NCBI GenBank assembly: GCA_021799755.1
Contig: JAJYZU010000083.1
Location: 1-5,362 of the forward strand
DNA: 5,362 nt
Direction of reading: 5' to 3'
DNA from: Thermoplasmata archaeon
Lineage (GTDB): Archaea; Thermoplasmatota; Thermoplasmata; Thermoplasmatales; Thermoplasmataceae
The position numbers were made by a program, and so were the translations under genes. The notes under the pieces are model-generated. The model was not told where the DNA came from. It saw only the letters and a list, made by a program, of their open reading frames with translations, and made no database searches. Positions 1 to 5,362 of the stretch are shown here, piece after piece; within the stretch, counting starts at the first letter, position 1; each line of letters begins with the position of its first letter.

Positions 1-287
1 AGAGACTGAAGGAAACAGGGCTGAAGCTTGAGAGCTTCACCTCAGATGACCCTGCATCATCATATCATGAATACGAACAGATGATTGTAATAGGCAGGAA
101 TGAGCACCTGAAGGATCGGTACATGGCAATCGTCGATCAGATGAAAGGTAAGCGATCGGTCTTCATCAGTACCGGCGTACCTGCAGACTTGGGTCTCTTT
201 CCAGATGGCGTAGGATACATCTCGACCTTCAGCACGAAGGTCGATGCAATAGCAGGAGCAGTATTCAGGGCGTTCGGCTATTTCTGA
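1..287 (+). CDS. GH3-family beta-N-acetylhexosaminidase (NagZ type), C-terminal end, 5' truncated by window edge
   Basis: The frame is open from the left edge (first full codon at base 3) to TGA at 285-287, giving 94 residues of a C-terminus. The order of elements matches the end of the C-terminal domain of two-domain GH3 beta-N-acetylhexosaminidases: a strand MIVIGRNEHL, a helix, KGKRSVFISTGVPADL (compare the family's 'PYDL' turn), FPDGVGYISTFST (compare 'vdAylatYs') and a final AVFRAFG (compare 'vLfG'). The family removes terminal beta-1,4-linked GlcNAc from muropeptides or chitooligosaccharides. The catalytic Asp and the His/Asp dyad lie in the N-terminal barrel outside the window, so activity cannot be checked, and beta-glucosidase-type GH3 is not formally excluded. 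The gene converges on the NamZ/epimerase/dipeptidase operon with only 4 bases between stop codons. In Bacillus subtilis a GH3 NagZ (ybbD) likewise neighbours namZ (ybbC), which supports the muropeptide role by context. Confidence 0.78.
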   Translation, partial: RLKETGLKLESFTSDDPASSYHEYEQMIVIGRNEHLKDRYMAIVDQMKGKRSVFISTGVPADLGLFPDGVGYISTFSTKVDAIAGAVFRAFGYF

Positions 288-301
288 TCTCTCAGAACGC
301 C
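269..301. terminator. Inverted repeats at convergent stop codons; possible bidirectional terminator
   Basis: The two convergent stop codons (285-287 on +, 294-292 on -) lie in a perfect inverted repeat, TTCTGA (282-287) / TCAGAA (292-297), with a 4-base loop. An overlapping, mutually exclusive 7-bp stem pairs GGCGTTC (269-275) with GAACGCC (295-301). Neither strand has a U-run after the stem, which archaeal termination normally uses, so a terminator role is only suggested by position. The repeat is partly coding on both strands and could be chance. Confidence 0.3.
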
Positions 302-1359
302 ATAATAGGGGTTGCTCCGATGCCGCCTTCCTTTGGAGGGTGGTTAATTCCCTTCACGAATGTTAGACCGCCTGAGACTCCAGGTTCCTTAAGGCTTGAA
401 AAACCATCAAGATCCGTATAAGCGAAATTCGGTTGTGCCAGTGCGACATGGAGACCTGCTGTATTTGCAAGCTTTGTCTCAACCATGCAGCCCATCATGC
501 ATGGCATCCTGAATACCTGGGCAGCTTTCACTATCTTAAGGGCATCAGTTATGCCGCCGCATTTCATCAGCTTTATGTTGACGTAGTCTGCAGCTTCCTC
601 GTAAACAACGTTGCTCAGATCCGCCAGGGTGAATACTGCTTCATCCGCCATAACTGGAATTGAAGAGTTGAGACGGACAAACTTCATTCCCTTGACGTCG
701 TCTCTGACAACAGGCTGCTCAAGGAACTCGATTCCGAACTTCTCTATCTTTCCTGAAAGGTCGACGGCTTTTTTGGGGCTGTAGGACTGGTTGAAATCGA
801 CGCAGATTGAATGTTCAGATCCAATTACCTCCCTGACCGCCTTGACCCTCTCATAGTCCTCATTTATTGACTTGCCCAGCTTTATCTTGAAGAATTCAAC
901 ACCGTCATCCAGGAGCTCTTTTGCCTGAACCTTCGCATGAGGAGCGTCCACCAGGTCGACAGTATATGATGTCTTCATGCTTGTTCTGTAACCACCAAGC
1001 AGTATGTAGAGAGGAAGATCGGCCTTCTTTCCAATTATGTCGTAAACTGCCATGTCCACCGCTGCTCTGCTAGCTTTAGAGCTTCTGGCAAGCGCTTTCA
1101 TCTTTTCGTTGAGTGCTTCCGTAGACAGTTCCATGCCCTTGAGTGCCTGGCTGAAAATGGAAAGCTCAGCCTCGACAGATCCCATTGTGTCTCCGGTGAT
1201 GAATGGGGTTGGGATTGCCTCGCCGTAACCAGATAGCCCATTGTCTGTTGTGACCTTGACGAAGTACCCTTCGTAAAAGTCTGTGGAACCAAGTGCAATC
1301 TTGAAAGGCTTCTTCATCTCTATGTTGATCTTCTTATACTCAAGACTCTTAATCTTCAT
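292..1359 (-). CDS. Dipeptide epimerase (L-Ala-D/L-Glu epimerase-like), enolase superfamily
   Basis: 355 residues, the usual length for the muconate-lactonizing subgroup of the enolase superfamily. The catalytic set is complete: K158-x-K160 (FKIKLGK; second Lys is one acid/base), metal ligands D188 (CVDFNQ), E214 (FLEQP) and D239 (MADEA), and the opposite acid/base K263 (VNIKLMK). A GCMVET loop at 290-295 and the D316-L-D318 pair (YTDLDG) follow. That C-terminal DxD, which holds the substrate amino group, marks dipeptide epimerases rather than muconate or succinylbenzoate enzymes. The reaction is 1,1-proton transfer at the second residue of a dipeptide, as in L-Ala-D-Glu to L-Ala-L-Glu from peptidoglycan. 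An oddity is that the position matching Arg24 of B. subtilis YkfB, which binds the Glu side chain, is Gly24 here (PFKIALG), so the preferred second residue may not be Glu. It is the last gene of the operon, 44 bases after namZ. The ATG start gives a full capping domain and has no clear Shine-Dalgarno site. Confidence 0.9.
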   Translation of the reverse strand: MKIKSLEYKKINIEMKKPFKIALGSTDFYEGYFVKVTTDNGLSGYGEAIPTPFITGDTMGSVEAELSIFSQALKGMELSTEALNEKMKALARSSKASRAAVDMAVYDIIGKKADLPLYILLGGYRTSMKTSYTVDLVDAPHAKVQAKELLDDGVEFFKIKLGKSINEDYERVKAVREVIGSEHSICVDFNQSYSPKKAVDLSGKIEKFGIEFLEQPVVRDDVKGMKFVRLNSSIPVMADEAVFTLADLSNVVYEEAADYVNIKLMKCGGITDALKIVKAAQVFRMPCMMGCMVETKLANTAGLHVALAQPNFAYTDLDGFSSLKEPGVSGGLTFVKGINHPPKEGGIGATPIMAF

Positions 1360-1375
1360 GACGCGTAATCCCTGG

Positions 1376-1386
1376 TAAATATTATT
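1376..1386 (-). promoter_or_regulatory. Weak TATA-like element before the epimerase gene
   Basis: On the - strand the short gap after namZ contains AATAATATTTA, centred about 22 bases upstream of the epimerase ATG, with no Shine-Dalgarno site between. That spacing would suit a leaderless internal promoter in an archaeon, but the gap is AT-rich and the 44-base spacing equally suits read-through from namZ. Confidence 0.3.
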
Positions 1387-1403
1387 AGCTATTGATCTTG
1401 TTC

Positions 1404-2498
1404 CTATTCGTAGAGCAGTAAAGCCTTCCTTACTTCGATGTAGTCCCTCGATGCGTCAATCCATGTTTCAGCTATTTCGCCTACGCCCATATCGTGTTCG
1501 AGGAATTTTTTCAGCTCATTGGATCCATACAGGATAGAAAGGTGCTTGAAATCAATGTTCTCCCGGTCAAGCGAGAATAGATGCTTCAGGATTCTTATTG
1601 CAAGAGTAGTGCTTCGAAATATCTTGCGATCCTCGATATGGATCGAAAAACCTTCCAGTTTTTGACCTGATAGCGGATCGAGGCTTGGAATGAACATTAT
1701 CTTTCGGAATATTGCGCCCAGTTGTTCCTTCAGATTGAGGGCCCATGCGCCGTTGTAACCGAACTGAGAGAATGGATAAGGCGTTCCTCGGCCAACGCTT
1801 ACTTTTGAGGATTCAACGAGAACCATTCCAACAAATACAAACAGCGCGTTTAACGTTGGAAGATTGAGTGAAGGCGGCACAAAATGTTTCAGATAAGCAT
1901 CATAATAATAGGATCTTTTGTACCCCGTCATGGTTGATATTTTGAGATCTGCGTTTATATCCCTGTTCAGGTACTGTGCCATTTCACCAATTGTCATCCC
2001 ATATCTCAGCGGAAAATCATCTATTCCGACGAACGATCTGAAACCAGGTTGCATCATCGGACCATCCACTATTGATCCTGAAAGAGGTGCGGGCCTGTCG
2101 CAAACTATCACCTGGGCGCCTGACTTTCCTGTGGCAGTTAGAAGGTGCTTTAATGATGATATATAGGTATACGGCCTTGCGCCTGCGTCCTGAATGTCAT
2201 ATATAACTGTCTCAACATCCTCCAGTTCAGCAGGATCTATCTGGTGCGACTTCTCAGTATAGATGGATTTGACTGGAATCCCTGCGTACGTTTCGTCCTG
2301 GACCATTTCTCCATTCTTAAGAGCGGCATAAATACCATGTTCAGGAGCAAATATCTTCCTAATATTCGCTCCCTTCTTCATCATTAGATCGATATTCTGA
2401 ATAAGGTCCTGAGTTACGCCAGATGCATTCGTTAATAAAGCTATAGGCTTGCTTGGCAGGTCAGGAAGCAATTTTTCTATGCCCAGTTTGAATTCCAT
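1404..2498 (-). CDS. namZ: Exo-beta-N-acetylmuramidase, NamZ type (GH171, formerly DUF1343)
   Basis: 364 residues carrying nearly all DUF1343/GH171 signature blocks in order: LLTNASGVT (21-29), IFAPEHG (49-55), VIYDIQDAGARPYTYISSL (98-116), VCDRPAPLSG (132-141), DGPMMQPGFRSFVG (145-158), LRYGMTIGEMA (164-174), VPPSLNLPTLNA (207-218) and VSVGRGTPYPF (233-243). Characterised members release MurNAc from the non-reducing end of muropeptides after NagZ has removed GlcNAc. The Glu of PEHG (E53) is the best candidate for a catalytic acid; I place this from the motif, not from a structure. Small departures from consensus are DRPAPLSG for DRPNPLGG and VESSKVS for the usual fEGTnvS. Bacterial NamZ often has a signal peptide, whereas this N-terminus (MEFKLGIEKLLPDLP) does not, implying a cytoplasmic enzyme. 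It sits between the dipeptidase and epimerase genes on the same strand. GH171 is mainly known from bacteria, so its presence here suggests transfer. Confidence 0.93.
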   Translation of the reverse strand: MEFKLGIEKLLPDLPSKPIALLTNASGVTQDLIQNIDLMMKKGANIRKIFAPEHGIYAALKNGEMVQDETYAGIPVKSIYTEKSHQIDPAELEDVETVIYDIQDAGARPYTYISSLKHLLTATGKSGAQVIVCDRPAPLSGSIVDGPMMQPGFRSFVGIDDFPLRYGMTIGEMAQYLNRDINADLKISTMTGYKRSYYYDAYLKHFVPPSLNLPTLNALFVFVGMVLVESSKVSVGRGTPYPFSQFGYNGAWALNLKEQLGAIFRKIMFIPSLDPLSGQKLEGFSIHIEDRKIFRSTTLAIRILKHLFSLDRENIDFKHLSILYGSNELKKFLEHDMGVGEIAETWIDASRDYIEVRKALLLYE

Positions 2499-2540
2499 AA
2501 TTAAGTATCGCAGGATACCTAAAATCTTTACCCGTTTAGT

Positions 2541-3473
2541 TTATCTCAAAACTGCCCTTATAACGCGCTCTGCGTTGGCATGAAGTAACTGATCGGGCTG
2601 CTTTACTGATTCTGCAAGCGTCCGGATATCAGAGAATGATGTGAATCCTTTGGTTCCGCCCCTCATGCCAAGAAAATCAGATCCAACGGCAACAATATCC
2701 CATCCGAAGTTTTCACCAAGATAATTGATGTTTTTTCTCATATCGTCTATAGTTGGTTCTGAAGACAACATTTCAGCGATTCCACTTATACCAACAATGC
2801 CATGAGTGGAATATATTGCCTGTAACATTGAATCATCAGCATTTCTTGCATGATCAAAGATCTTCCTGATGTTTGTATGCGTCATTATCACTGGATTCTT
2901 GGAATACTCGCATACGTCAAGAGTTGTCTGCCTGCTGGTATGAGCTGTGTCTACTATTATGCCTAGTTCATTACAAAGATCAACAAGTTCCTCACCAGCC
3001 CCGGTCAGGCCATAGTCTTTTTTTGAATAGCATGAAGCCGCATATTTGTTATCGTAATTCCATGTCAACCCGATGCATCTTATTCCAAGATCATAGAGGG
3101 AATATATGTCTGTAGGATCCGCAATAGTATCTGCCCCTTCAACAGATATTAAGAATTTAGGTATCTCTCCCTTGAGATCACCAGCTCTGGAGACAAAATC
3201 CACTGTCATTGTGCTGCGCAGAAAAGAATAGAAATTCGCCTGTTGAATGAGTGCAGAGTAATCTGGGATCCATGTAAATTCTGCTGGTTTCTGCTTCAGA
3301 TCAATGGGTGGTTTTGATTTTGCCCACACCCTTCTAAAAGGAAAAATAGCTGAAAAGATGAGAACATCCCCGTACTCCCTCAGCTTCGCTATAGACGATT
3401 GCGAAGTACCGGAAAAGACATTCTCTGTGGTTGAGGTTATGCCAAAGTCTTCGTGTAAGTCAATGATTCGCAT
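2541..3473 (-). CDS. Membrane-dipeptidase-family (M19, renal dipeptidase-like) zinc dipeptidase
   Basis: 310 residues, within the range of compact prokaryotic M19 peptidases. Expected metal and substrate residues are all visible: H7-x-D9 (DLHEDF) at the start of the barrel, bridging E112 (SVEGADT), H178 (DTAHTS), H199 (VIMTHTN), R210 in DHARNADD (compare family H-x-RN-x-x-D), and D266 (VGSDFLG). Family members hydrolyse a range of dipeptides, often tolerating a D-residue at the C-terminal position. In this operon the likely substrates are peptidoglycan-derived dipeptides before or after epimerisation, which is inference. Despite the family name there is no signal peptide or membrane segment, so it should be cytoplasmic. 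The ATG start places the HxD motif at residue 7, as expected for a protein that begins with the first barrel strand. It is the first gene of the operon, with namZ 42 bases downstream and a TATA box about 25 bases upstream. Confidence 0.9.
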   Translation of the reverse strand: MRIIDLHEDFGITSTTENVFSGTSQSSIAKLREYGDVLIFSAIFPFRRVWAKSKPPIDLKQKPAEFTWIPDYSALIQQANFYSFLRSTMTVDFVSRAGDLKGEIPKFLISVEGADTIADPTDIYSLYDLGIRCIGLTWNYDNKYAASCYSKKDYGLTGAGEELVDLCNELGIIVDTAHTSRQTTLDVCEYSKNPVIMTHTNIRKIFDHARNADDSMLQAIYSTHGIVGISGIAEMLSSEPTIDDMRKNINYLGENFGWDIVAVGSDFLGMRGGTKGFTSFSDIRTLAESVKQPDQLLHANAERVIRAVLR

Positions 3474-3492
3474 GATACAGTGATTCCAGACG

Positions 3493-3504
3493 TTTATAAT
3501 ATAA
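3493..3504 (-). promoter_or_regulatory. TATA-box promoter of the dipeptidase-namZ-epimerase operon
   Basis: The - strand reads TTATATTATAAA, centred about 25 bases upstream of the dipeptidase ATG, preceded by purine-rich AAGGAG that could act as a BRE. Nothing between box and ATG resembles a Shine-Dalgarno site. TATA-to-ATG spacing of 25-27 bases is the pattern of leaderless transcripts common in Thermoplasmatales, so transcription probably starts at or next to the ATG. Confidence 0.65.
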
Positions 3505-3592
3505 CTCCTTAATTTTCTGGTTTTTGCTTACTTTTAGGATTAGCATATAATTCCTGAATGTTTAAATAATGGACGGCTGGGAGGCATTCGTA

Positions 3593-3612
3593 GTGTCCAG
3601 AATTATGTGTAA
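3593..3612. repeat. Left terminal inverted repeat of the IS256 element
   Basis: GTGTCCAGAATTATGTGTAA matches the reverse complement of 4825-4844 at 17 of 20 positions, with no gaps. Similarity stops abruptly outside base 3593, which defines the tip to within a base or two. Confidence 0.8.
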
Positions 3613-3614
3613 TC

Positions 3615-4682
3615 TTAAGGATACCTTTCCCTGAACATGTCTGTGATCTCATCCTTGCATTTATAATATCCCTTTATGACTCTGTGTGACCACTTCTCAT
3701 TCAATTCTGCCACTCTGAGATATATTATCTTCATAGCTGCACTTTCAGTAGGCAGTGAATCAATTACCTTTATTCTTCTTCGAATCTCCTTGTTCATTCT
3801 TTCAATTATGTTGGAAGAATGCAGTGATCTCCTGATGCTCTCAGGATACTGGAAGTATGTGAACAGATATCCAAGCTTCCTTTCAAGATTGTATACAGGC
3901 CTTGGATATTTGGAGGACCATTTGTCCTTGAATCTATTGAATCTTTCAATTGCAGATTCCTTTGTGTCTGATAAGAATACTGCCTTAAGGTCACGATCTA
4001 TCTCGTTCTTATCTGATTCACGAACATCGGATTCAAAATTCCTGGATGCATGTATAGTGCATAACTGGAATTGAGCTCTTGGAAATATCTTCCTTATCTC
4101 CTCATCCAGTTTGGGTACACCATCCGCTATGAATAAAAGAGGTTCCATTATTCCACGGTTATAGAGATCCTGTATGATTGTGGAATATGTGTTATGTGTC
4201 TCCTTTGCAGATAAATAGAATCCAAGTATCTCATATTCGCCGGTTTCTTTTATTCCCATTGCGAATATGACAGGTTCTTTCTCAACTGTATCCCTTCTGA
4301 GAAAGAAGAATAATCCATCTAAGAATACAGCAATATATCTTTTTTCCAGAAGCCTGTCCTGGAATCTTTTAACCTCTTCAAGTGTTGCCTCAGTTATTGT
4401 CGATATTGTTGATTTCGAATATCGATTCTGGAATATTGTATGCATTATCTCAGCTGAATTTCTTGTTGATATGCCCTTGGAGTAAAGGGCCAGTATCAGT
4501 TCATCTATTCCGATCGATCTCGAATAAGGTTCAAACACTGCTGTCTGGAATGTTCCATTTCTGTCCCTCGGTACATTCAGATCTCTTATCTCACCCATCT
4601 TGGTCTTCATGGATCTGCTATAATATCGATTCTTCTGGCCATTATTTTCCATGAGGAATACATCCCTTTCTGTATTCATCAA
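3615..4682 (-). CDS. IS256 (mutator-type) DDE transposase, N-terminally interrupted form
   Basis: This continuous frame encodes 355 residues with the full IS256 catalytic core: D122 (FLDG), D187 (IADG) and E294 (IIERMNKEIRRR). D-D spacing is 65 and D-E spacing 107, as the family expects, and the conserved C208-x2-H211 (QLCTIHAS) precedes the insertion domain. The N-terminal conserved block MKTKMGEIRDLNVPRDRNG is at 25-43. The open frame begins at TTG (4682-4680) followed directly by ATG (4679). Upstream in the same frame are two stop codons, then an ATG with a strong Shine-Dalgarno site at 4748, so the ancestral protein would be about 377 residues. Translation could restart at the TTG/ATG pair, though the nearest purine tract (AAAGGAA, about 4702-4690) is rather far. 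The core is undamaged, so loss is recent or the shorter form still works. Role: cut-and-paste or copy-out transposition of the element. Confidence 0.85.
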   Translation of the reverse strand: MMNTERDVFLMENNGQKNRYYSRSMKTKMGEIRDLNVPRDRNGTFQTAVFEPYSRSIGIDELILALYSKGISTRNSAEIMHTIFQNRYSKSTISTITEATLEEVKRFQDRLLEKRYIAVFLDGLFFFLRRDTVEKEPVIFAMGIKETGEYEILGFYLSAKETHNTYSTIIQDLYNRGIMEPLLFIADGVPKLDEEIRKIFPRAQFQLCTIHASRNFESDVRESDKNEIDRDLKAVFLSDTKESAIERFNRFKDKWSSKYPRPVYNLERKLGYLFTYFQYPESIRRSLHSSNIIERMNKEIRRRIKVIDSLPTESAAMKIIYLRVAELNEKWSHRVIKGYYKCKDEITDMFRERYP

Positions 4683-4748
4683 ATTCTAAAGGAATTCCTT
4701 TACAGCTTTTCAAGCGACTTCCGATACAATTTTATCTATGTCTTCCAT
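4683..4748 (-). pseudogene. Interrupted N-terminal segment of the IS256 transposase (two in-frame stops)
   Basis: From ATG at 4748 the frame reads MEDIDKIVSEVA, TGA (4712-4710), KAVKEFL, TAG (4688-4686), NL, and continues in register into the long transposase frame (MNTERDVFL...). The stretch resembles the normal IS256 lead-in, where a helix of the kind 'KEFL-x-NLM-x-x-ER-x-x-FL' precedes the NRYYSRS motif, so the stops sit inside once-coding sequence. AAGGAGG lies 10 bases before this ATG, a strong initiation signal. Two different stop codons argue for decay rather than a single recoding event; amber or opal recoding is possible but unsupported. Confidence 0.6.
4687..4702. repeat. Perfect 16-base palindrome inside the transposase 5' region
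   Basis: TAAAGGAATTCCTTTA is its own reverse complement and lies just upstream of the TTG/ATG restart, overlapping the in-frame TAG. It may be a protein-binding dyad or a small hairpin, or may simply reflect codon content (VKEFL). Nothing else supports a function. Confidence 0.4.
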
Positions 4749-4756
4749 GTATGTTT

Positions 4757-4784
4757 TACCTCCTTGCTTGTCTTCAAGGAGGTA
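4757..4784 (-). promoter_or_regulatory. Hairpin sequestering the transposase Shine-Dalgarno site
   Basis: On the - strand TACCTCCTTG (4784-4775) pairs perfectly over 10 bases with CAAGGAGGTA (4766-4757), leaving an 8-base loop. The 3' arm contains AAGGAGG (4765-4759), the ribosome binding site placed 10 bases before the ATG at 4748. The 5' arm is an anti-Shine-Dalgarno sequence. When the hairpin forms, the site is hidden. Fold-back inhibition of transposase translation is known for some bacterial insertion sequences (IS10, IS50); applying it here is inference. Confidence 0.6.
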
Positions 4785-5162: not shown

Positions 5163-5362
5163 CTATTTCTTCCTAGTCATAAGAAGTACAGCAGAAGCAA
5201 TAACAATGGTAGCAACAATGACGCCAATCAGAACATAAACAAGATAGCTTACAGGCTTTGCAGGTGTCACTGTGCTTAACTTCTCAAATGCTACTGTTAC
5301 TGTAACGCTATTGTCGTTCAGTGTTATTGAACCAGTCTTTTGCTTATAACCGCTGGAGGAAG
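5163..5362 (-). CDS. C-terminal end of a membrane-anchored extracellular (surface) protein, 5' part beyond window
   Basis: The - strand is open from the right edge to TAG at 5165-5163, showing 65 residues. It begins SSSGYKQKTGSITLNDNS, continues VTVTVAFEKLSTVTPAKP, then has one hydrophobic helix (about residues 39-61, YLVYVLIGVIVATIVIASAV...) and ends MTRKK. A threonine/serine-rich beta segment of the form 'GY..-G-ITLNDNSVTVTVAF' before a single C-terminal helix and basic tail is the layout of many Thermoplasmata surface proteins, including thermopsin-like proteases and large Ig-like-repeat proteins. Substrate-binding proteins of peptide transporters in these archaea can also be anchored this way. 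The visible part cannot decide between them. It should sit with the beta part outside and RKK inside the membrane. It reads toward the insertion sequence and the muropeptide operon but is separated from them by terminators. Confidence 0.7.
   Translation of the reverse strand, partial: SSSGYKQKTGSITLNDNSVTVTVAFEKLSTVTPAKPVSYLVYVLIGVIVATIVIASAVLLMTRKK

Follow-up and report, generated by a model that had tools for sequence, protein, structure and literature searches.

A gene cluster predicted to catabolize bacterial muropeptides in Thermoplasmata archaea

Introduction

In Bacillus subtilis, muropeptides are rescued by the products of murQRP-amiE-nagZ-namZ (ybb) and ykfABCD, and in Escherichia coli the cell wall is recycled through AmpG, NagZ, AmpD, LdcA, AnmK, MurQ and NagA. 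Here, we analyze a stretch of 5,362 nucleotides from a Thermoplasmata archaeon (GenBank assembly GCA_021799755.1, contig JAJYZU010000083.1; hereafter "the window", meaning that whole stretch), which encodes members of several of these enzyme families. We consider it likely that the window holds one end of a muropeptide-catabolism island, serving catabolic scavenging in the cytoplasm after import.

The available text of one recent study (PMC12352652) describes archaeal peptidoglycan hydrolases that kill bacteria, with homologues prominent in Thermoplasmatota among others. Whether archaea also scavenge peptidoglycan is a question that it leaves open, and its main text uses neither the term muropeptide nor the term recycling. 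Another paper (PMC6262408), in the portion available, considers peptidoglycan an improbable target for the archaeal MupG-like proteins of Sulfolobus relatives, because archaea lack it, and the accessible part of PMC12343721, a haloarchaeal paper, includes GH171 in a set of carbohydrate-active enzymes. Among the literature matches listed, which comprise titles and the beginnings of abstracts and leave subscription papers mostly uncovered, no description of muropeptide catabolism in Thermoplasmata was found, and the available text of papers on Cuniculiplasma, Thermoplasmatales and Thermoplasmatota contains no muramic-type term and one incidental mention of peptidoglycan.

Results

Genes of the window

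Four open reading frames occupy positions 3-3473 of the window, with intergenic gaps of 4, 44 and 42 base pairs (bp) in the open reading frame list. A preliminary description of this DNA, made from the letters alone, had named the four genes and their tight packing (gaps of 4-44 bases); both are confirmed, the former by Pfam searches and by comparison with L007, a locus from the contig of a closely related Thermoplasmata archaeon. The genes and the region upstream of them are as follows (aa, amino acids).

3..287, plus strand: predicted NagZ-type GH3 beta-N-acetylhexosaminidase, C-terminal 94 aa, cut by the window start; identical to the C-terminus of L007:4292-5686 except at 3 of 94 residues
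292..1359, minus strand: predicted dipeptide epimerase of the L-Ala-D/L-Glu type (enolase superfamily, YkfB-like), 355 aa; PF13378/PF02746; best NCBIfam model NF041118; PDB 3jva, 1jpm
1404..2498, minus strand: NamZ, exo-beta-N-acetylmuramidase family (GH171/DUF1343), 364 aa; PF07075 and PF20732; PDB 4k05, 4jja
2541..3473, minus strand: M19 dipeptidase, 310 aa; PF01244, 214.9 bits; metal-binding residue motifs
3474..3589, minus strand: region upstream of M19, also present in relatives; it contains a TATA-like stretch, which precedes the start codon by about 20-30 bp

NagZ is convergent with the other three genes, so that only M19-NamZ-epimerase can form one operon within the window, and a simple four-gene operon is ruled out. 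The sequence upstream of M19, including the TATA-like stretch, is similar in the window, L007 and a second locus (L002), and not similar in a third (L009).

The 94-residue GH3 end, searched alone, gave no Pfam or NCBIfam match. NagZ enzymes carry a His/Asp loop, KHFPGHG-x(4-6)-D-x-H, and an Asp nucleophile motif. The intact homologue in L007 (464 aa; PF00933, 204 bits) has, in a part that lies outside the window, the loop KHFPGHG...DSH (KHFPGHGGVLGDSH, at 166) and the nucleophile motif ITDSLNM at 247. Its first PDB match is 3tev, a GH3 protein without an enzyme name (6.7e-47); entries named hexosaminidase, N-acetylglucosaminidase or NagZ/ybbD lie at about 1e-38 to 1e-19, and among those named for beta-glucosidase the best is 5iob ("beta-glucosidase-related", 2e-24), then BglX (beta-glucoside phosphorylase, 7e-15). 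The beta-glucosidase active site that the preliminary description had allowed for was looked for in this homologue and is not what it has; the intact NagZ loop and the PDB ranking rule out a beta-glucosidase identity.

The epimerase matches PF13378 (4.2e-50) and PF02746, and its top PDB sequences are dipeptide epimerases, including the B. subtilis L-Ala-D/L-Glu epimerase (1jpm). In alignment with the latter, K158xK160, D188, E214, D239, K263 and the pair D316xD318 are identical, residues that we take to be the KxK, D, E, D, K catalytic set and the DxD substrate pair, and the full catalytic set claimed earlier for this enzyme is thus borne out. NamZ has both of the domains that define its family, NamZ_N (206.3 bits, cut-off 26.9) and NamZ_C (93.1 bits, cut-off 25), and is predicted to release N-acetylmuramic acid (MurNAc) from the non-reducing end. 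The M19 dipeptidase lies far above its Pfam cut-off of 26 and retains an HxD motif (H7, D9), E112, H178, H199 and D266, which are presumably the metal-binding residues.

The cluster in related genomes

In L007 the cluster continues with NagZ, a CocE/S15 hydrolase, an AmiE-like protein, MurQ, NagA, a SIS-domain isomerase, an SH3-NlpC/P60 protein and AnmK, followed by an Opp-type importer in which OppA, OppB and OppD were labeled by family search and OppC and OppF by eye. Its MurQ scores 315.4 bits against the NF003915 cut-off of 168, and the motifs GAGTSGR...E and EGSED, which we take to be the two active-site glutamate motifs, are present in this relative. NagA passes TIGR00221 (242.9 bits, cut-off 225.65), AnmK matches PF03702 (260.4 bits, cut-off 24), and the AmiE-like serine hydrolase matches PF00144 (143.1 bits), with SLTK at 68 as its SxxK motif; the label assumes that this beta-lactamase-type enzyme is a MurNAc-L-Ala amidase. 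The motifs of MurQ, AnmK, the AmiE-like protein and NlpC/P60 were all found. In two other close relatives, MurQ, NagA, SIS, AmiE-like and AnmK genes are located on other contigs. Separately, the AnmK of L007 (12385-13590) is only 61% identical to that of L065 (4650-5771), compared with 82-93% for adjoining genes, which points to a possible replacement of AnmK in one of the lineages.

We sampled 200 genomes of the class to which G001 belongs, together with 14 control genomes. MurQ, AnmK and NamZ exceed curated cut-offs in 11, 9 and 9 of the 200 genomes, respectively, all inside 12 genomes. MurQ is also above cut-off in all nine NamZ genomes and in eight of the nine AnmK genomes (hypergeometric 5e-14 and 3e-11, figures that treat genomes as independent), and in the ninth AnmK genome, G067, MurQ is truncated at a contig end. 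Looser MurQ matches (185/200 genomes, 13/14 controls) fall mostly below the cut-off and were left out of these counts. Among the controls, AnmK occurs in 5/14 and NamZ in 3/14, all of them bacteria. The check for co-occurring families and transporters in related archaea, suggested at the outset, thus finds NamZ, MurQ and AnmK together and an Opp-type importer in L007.

Gene content was then counted over the stretches fetched around these genes in 14 carriers (G001-G003, G011, G027, G034, G043, G059, G067, G070, G075, G092, G156 and G181). MurQ is present in all 14 (one cut); NamZ, AmiE-like and NagA in 11 each; epimerase, NagZ, NlpC/P60 and AnmK in 10 each (AnmK in 11 genome-wide); the SIS isomerase in seven and NagB in five others. 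MurQ, NagA, NamZ, NagZ, the AmiE-like protein and NlpC/P60 are recurrent members. In the stretches covered, M19 was found in only the three closest genomes; it therefore looks peripheral, and was rejected as a core member. The idea that the window's four genes form one pathway is supported, with this correction for M19.

Two further families were searched for in the carriers. LD-carboxypeptidase (PF02016, S66) is above cut-off in 12/14 carriers and BadF-type kinase in 11/14, the former, like a MurK-like kinase, lying outside the cluster in L007's genome. Every carrier has one or more candidate MurNAc kinases above cut-off, with AnmK in 11 and BadF-type in 11. A MurNAc-6-phosphate etherase, an amidase and an LD-carboxypeptidase, which the preliminary description had noted as absent from the window, are indeed not among its genes; relatives hold family-level candidates for all three.

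Other recurring neighbors, each with one or two copies searched against Pfam, are a BadF kinase (eight genomes), an S13 carboxypeptidase (five) and a LysA-type decarboxylase (three); LysA inside the cluster passes the TIGR01048 cut-off in both genomes tested, and the G181 neighborhood also holds a D-aminopeptidase. A second MurQ stands beside a MupG homologue in G011, G043, G059 and G075 and adjoins Opp-like genes in the last three; the G011 MupG, the one copy searched, matches PF19200/PF05913. These loci (L027:13435-15549, L030, L028 and L025) share a conserved partner of about 320 aa as well, which gave no Pfam match (L027 copy). A DUF218 protein adjoins the cluster in five genomes (L058:11145-11675, L036, L037, L057 and L007:19670-20000; Pfam on the L058 copy).

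G070 is almost certainly Cuniculiplasma divulgatum S5, which is cultured and wall-deficient. Its island extends over about 1,596,773-1,622,674 and also contains a TrmB regulator, a GH31 glycosidase and a second ABC transporter of the SBP_bac_1 type. Within it, a second BadF-type kinase is followed by the TrmB sugar-type regulator (L035:11320-13359), which may control the cluster. An FMN-dependent dehydrogenase (PF01070; L035:3525-4688) adjoins it, a possible outlet for lactate released by MurQ.

A proposed route and its specificity

Gene families, their clustering and conservation, motifs, and the absence of two wall-synthesis families from the carriers are what we observe; the substrates, direction of flux, transporter specificity and cytoplasmic location in the route proposed here are read from sequence. 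An Opp-type ABC transporter would import bacterial wall fragments, both N-acetylglucosamine (GlcNAc)-(anhydro)MurNAc-peptides and free peptides. In the cytoplasm, NagZ would take off GlcNAc and NamZ would take off MurNAc, the AmiE-like serine hydrolase would cleave the lactyl-L-Ala bond, an LD-carboxypeptidase would trim D-Ala, and the SH3-NlpC/P60 enzyme would cleave D-Glu from diaminopimelate, which LysA could turn into lysine in some relatives. The epimerase would convert L-Ala-D-Glu to L-Ala-L-Glu, and dipeptides would be split by a dipeptidase (M19 in the window). On the sugar side, AnmK and/or a MurK-like kinase would make MurNAc-6-phosphate, from which MurQ would remove lactate to give GlcNAc-6-phosphate; NagA would deacetylate this, and the SIS-domain isomerase or NagB would then yield fructose-6-phosphate and ammonia.

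A number of results weigh against so specific an assignment. Everything beyond the window's four genes is inferred, as it is read from a 95%-identical relative, and the labels of the kinases, NagZ, the epimerase and the AmiE-like protein are predictions from family and context. The NagZ of L007 falls under the NCBIfam hexosaminidase equivalog NF003740 (190.4 bits, cut-off 207) and is therefore NagZ-type without being a formal member; the window's epimerase scores 239 bits against a cut-off of 500 for the L-Ala-D/L-Glu epimerase equivalog NF041118, the best of 17 models. For the MurQ equivalog TIGR00274 (cut-off 302), the proteins of L007 (272.1) and G070 (252.8) are below, and the second-type MurQ of G043 (307.3) is above. 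AnmK misses every NCBIfam AnmK equivalog (nearest NF007148, 385.2 for L007 and 386.8 for G181 against 387), and the best NCBIfam model for the AmiE-like protein is PBP4B, far under its cut-off. The S66 and BadF families are not specific, being found also in 6/14 controls including Haloferax and in 10/14 controls including archaea, respectively. Finally, G034, G067, G075 and G092 are without several members in the stretches covered, and gene order is variable.

Could the enzymes instead act on archaeal or plant glycans, levoglucosan or ordinary dipeptides, with no link to muropeptides? In the PDB, AnmK matches levoglucosan kinase best (1.5e-47) and AnmK itself less well (1.4e-40), for the G181 MurK-like kinase MurK (8zo3, 3.3e-31) barely outscores an archaeal hexokinase (2.1e-29), and the C. 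divulgatum cluster has the GH31 glycosidase and SBP_bac_1-type transporter noted above. Against this, MurQ, NamZ, the AmiE-like protein, NlpC/P60, the dipeptide epimerase, LD-carboxypeptidase and LysA jointly match the bonds of peptidoglycan, and the MupG homologue recurs beside the second MurQ. The bond on which MurQ acts is the lactyl ether found in MurNAc, and we know of no other polymer that this enzyme set fits. For AnmK, gene context favors anhydroMurNAc as the predicted substrate over levoglucosan. We therefore regard unrelated substrates as an unlikely explanation for the cluster, and muropeptide catabolism as the better one.

Wall synthesis and cell location

A search of the carriers for the penicillin-binding-protein transpeptidase (PF00905) and for FtsW/RodA (PF01098), with MurA, MraY and Ddl outside its range, found each in 0/14 carriers and 10/14 controls. 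This agrees with the earlier suggestion of an organism that makes no peptidoglycan, and a review, in the text available, describes the studied Thermoplasmatales other than Picrophilus as having no cell walls. A self-made wall was rejected on the two 0/14 counts. The corresponding explanation, that the archaeon recycles a wall or signal containing MurNAc that it makes itself in small amount, would gain from the S13 carboxypeptidase homologues close to the cluster and from a further point that counts against scavenging, namely the Mur-ligase-domain proteins present in 13/14 carriers. However, 12 of these genomes hold a single such protein (one holds two), and the family also occurs in control archaea. 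Peptidoglycan synthesis needs four Mur ligases, so these proteins are probably of the folate type. Taken with the missing transpeptidase and FtsW/RodA, this makes recycling of an own wall very unlikely.

The 17-residue N-terminal mean hydropathy is at most 1.17 in 27/27 enzymes from the window, L007 and five carriers, compared with 2.33 for OppA, a check by hydropathy rather than by a signal-peptide predictor. The absence of signal-like N-termini fits the cytoplasmic enzymes expected from the preliminary description, and with them the import of intact muropeptides and their breakdown in the cytoplasm.

Archaeal origin of the window and history of MurQ

Positions 1-3589 of the window are 95.0% identical over 3,590 bp (blastn) to L001/L007, from the Thermoplasmata archaeon contig. 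A second relative shows 86% identity to the window's first 3,589 bases, and a third 73% across 101-3487. Scanning genome contigs with NamZ yielded three loci, all from Thermoplasmata archaeon, at protein identities of 95, 88 and 78%. Of the best 120 NamZ matches, 44 are at 41% identity or more, after which identity falls to 36%; the only named organism among the 44 is Candidatus Thermoplasmatota archaeon. The closest named matches of the neighboring MurQ are Thermoplasmataceae and Thermoplasmata archaea (best 120 of 8000). An archaeal source for this DNA, already thought probable, is thus supported, and a bacterial contig is not borne out.

Bacterial DNA mis-binned into archaeal metagenome-assembled genomes would account for enzyme families typical of bacteria, and the three relatives are assemblies of that kind. 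However, the cluster sits on contigs of 2,226,687 bp in G181 and 1,938,699 bp in G070, which largely contradicts mis-binning, and its gene content recurs in many assemblies. The MurQ of six carriers, moreover, groups with archaea and apart from bacterial rows, as described below. Contamination was rejected on the 2.23-Mb and 1.94-Mb contigs, and of all the explanations considered we give it the least credence, with hardly any probability left to it.

The MurQ tree contains 96 rows, namely 15 proteins from 11 carriers and 81 of the best 120 matches (eight chosen among the first 44, plus 73 of the later 76, from which three short or fused rows had been dropped). MurQ of G001, G027, G070, G092, G156 and G181 falls in a 69-row clade (support 100/99) with Thermoplasmata(ceae) and Conexivisphaerales, apart from Acidiferrales bacterium rows, in a tree with thin bacterial sampling and a midpoint root. 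The first MurQ of G011, G034, G043, G059 and G075 and the MupG-linked second MurQ are on the other side, with the Acidiferrales bacterium rows. At least two acquisitions of MurQ are suggested, given thin bacterial sampling and mostly unnamed rows; since few bacterial rows are named and the root is a midpoint, we claim no direction of transfer.

DNA flanking the cluster

Homology to L007 by blastn ends at window position 3589. Beyond it, just upstream of the M19 promoter region, lies a transposase outside the proposed pathway.

3615..4682, minus strand: flanking transposase of the IS256/Mutator type; PF00872; NF033543, 317.5 bits against a cut-off of 150

No inverted repeats of at least 14 bp were found around this element. 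The transposase stands within window 3590-4760, where L007 has a gene (L007:1-764) that we presume, by eye, to be MFS-like; Pfam and NCBIfam searches of it gave no match. Positions 5163-5360 on the minus strand encode the C-terminal end of an apparent membrane-anchored surface protein, resembling by eye the C-terminus of a 1281-aa protein (L003:5012-8857). The aligned part of L007 contains neither the transposase nor this surface-protein anchor.

Discussion

Beyond the window itself, we lean, by a modest degree, towards a wider interpretation, in which several wall-less acidophilic archaeal lineages live partly on bacterial wall debris. From muropeptides imported intact they would draw carbon of the sugars, nitrogen, D-amino acids and, by way of diaminopimelate, lysine; one MurQ lineage would be a long-standing resident of archaea, apart from the bacterial matches sampled, and a second set of MurQ, MupG and Opp would serve MurNAc-GlcNAc. 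If true, a complete peptidoglycan-eating metabolism exists in archaea, including cultured C. divulgatum, and would connect the nutrition of archaea in acid communities with the turnover of bacterial walls. It would give a use to archaeal peptidoglycan hydrolases, for which scavenging is left open in the available text of PMC12352652, and it bears on the view, in the portion available of PMC6262408, that a role in peptidoglycan metabolism is improbable for archaeal MupG-like enzymes. The idea is testable now, as the cluster is present in what is almost certainly the cultured C. divulgatum S5, for which RNA-seq is said, in the available text of PMC12448462, to be in the supplement.

Comparison with known systems

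The archaeal set resembles the B. subtilis rescue system on both sides of the pathway, with NagZ, NamZ, an AmiE-type serine hydrolase and MurQ for the sugars, and LD-carboxypeptidase, epimerase, NlpC/P60 endopeptidase and an oligopeptide ABC transporter for the peptides. It differs in that the archaeal NagZ, NamZ and AmiE-like proteins are without a signal-like N-terminus, whereas B. subtilis secretes its own; in its candidate kinases, AnmK and MurK-like (a phosphotransferase system was not searched for); and in that the sugar and peptide genes share one island, in carriers without the penicillin-binding-protein transpeptidase and FtsW/RodA.

With E. coli recycling the archaeal set shares NagZ, AnmK, MurQ, NagA and the epimerase, a combination suited to anhydro-muropeptides, but it has in addition NamZ, the AmiE-like protein and an Opp-type importer within the cluster (AmpG was not searched for). 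Unlike in E. coli, the products could only be catabolized, since wall synthesis is missing.

In the MupG-MurQ operon of Staphylococcus aureus, as given in the available text of PMC6262408, MupG likewise stands beside MurQ, as it does beside the second MurQ of G011, G043, G059 and G075, but the archaeal loci have ABC importer genes in place of a phosphotransferase system. The hydrolases in the available text of PMC12352652 are, like the enzymes predicted here, archaeal proteins aimed at the bacterial wall; they cut the wall and are found in culture supernatant, whereas the present set would carry out the downstream breakdown.

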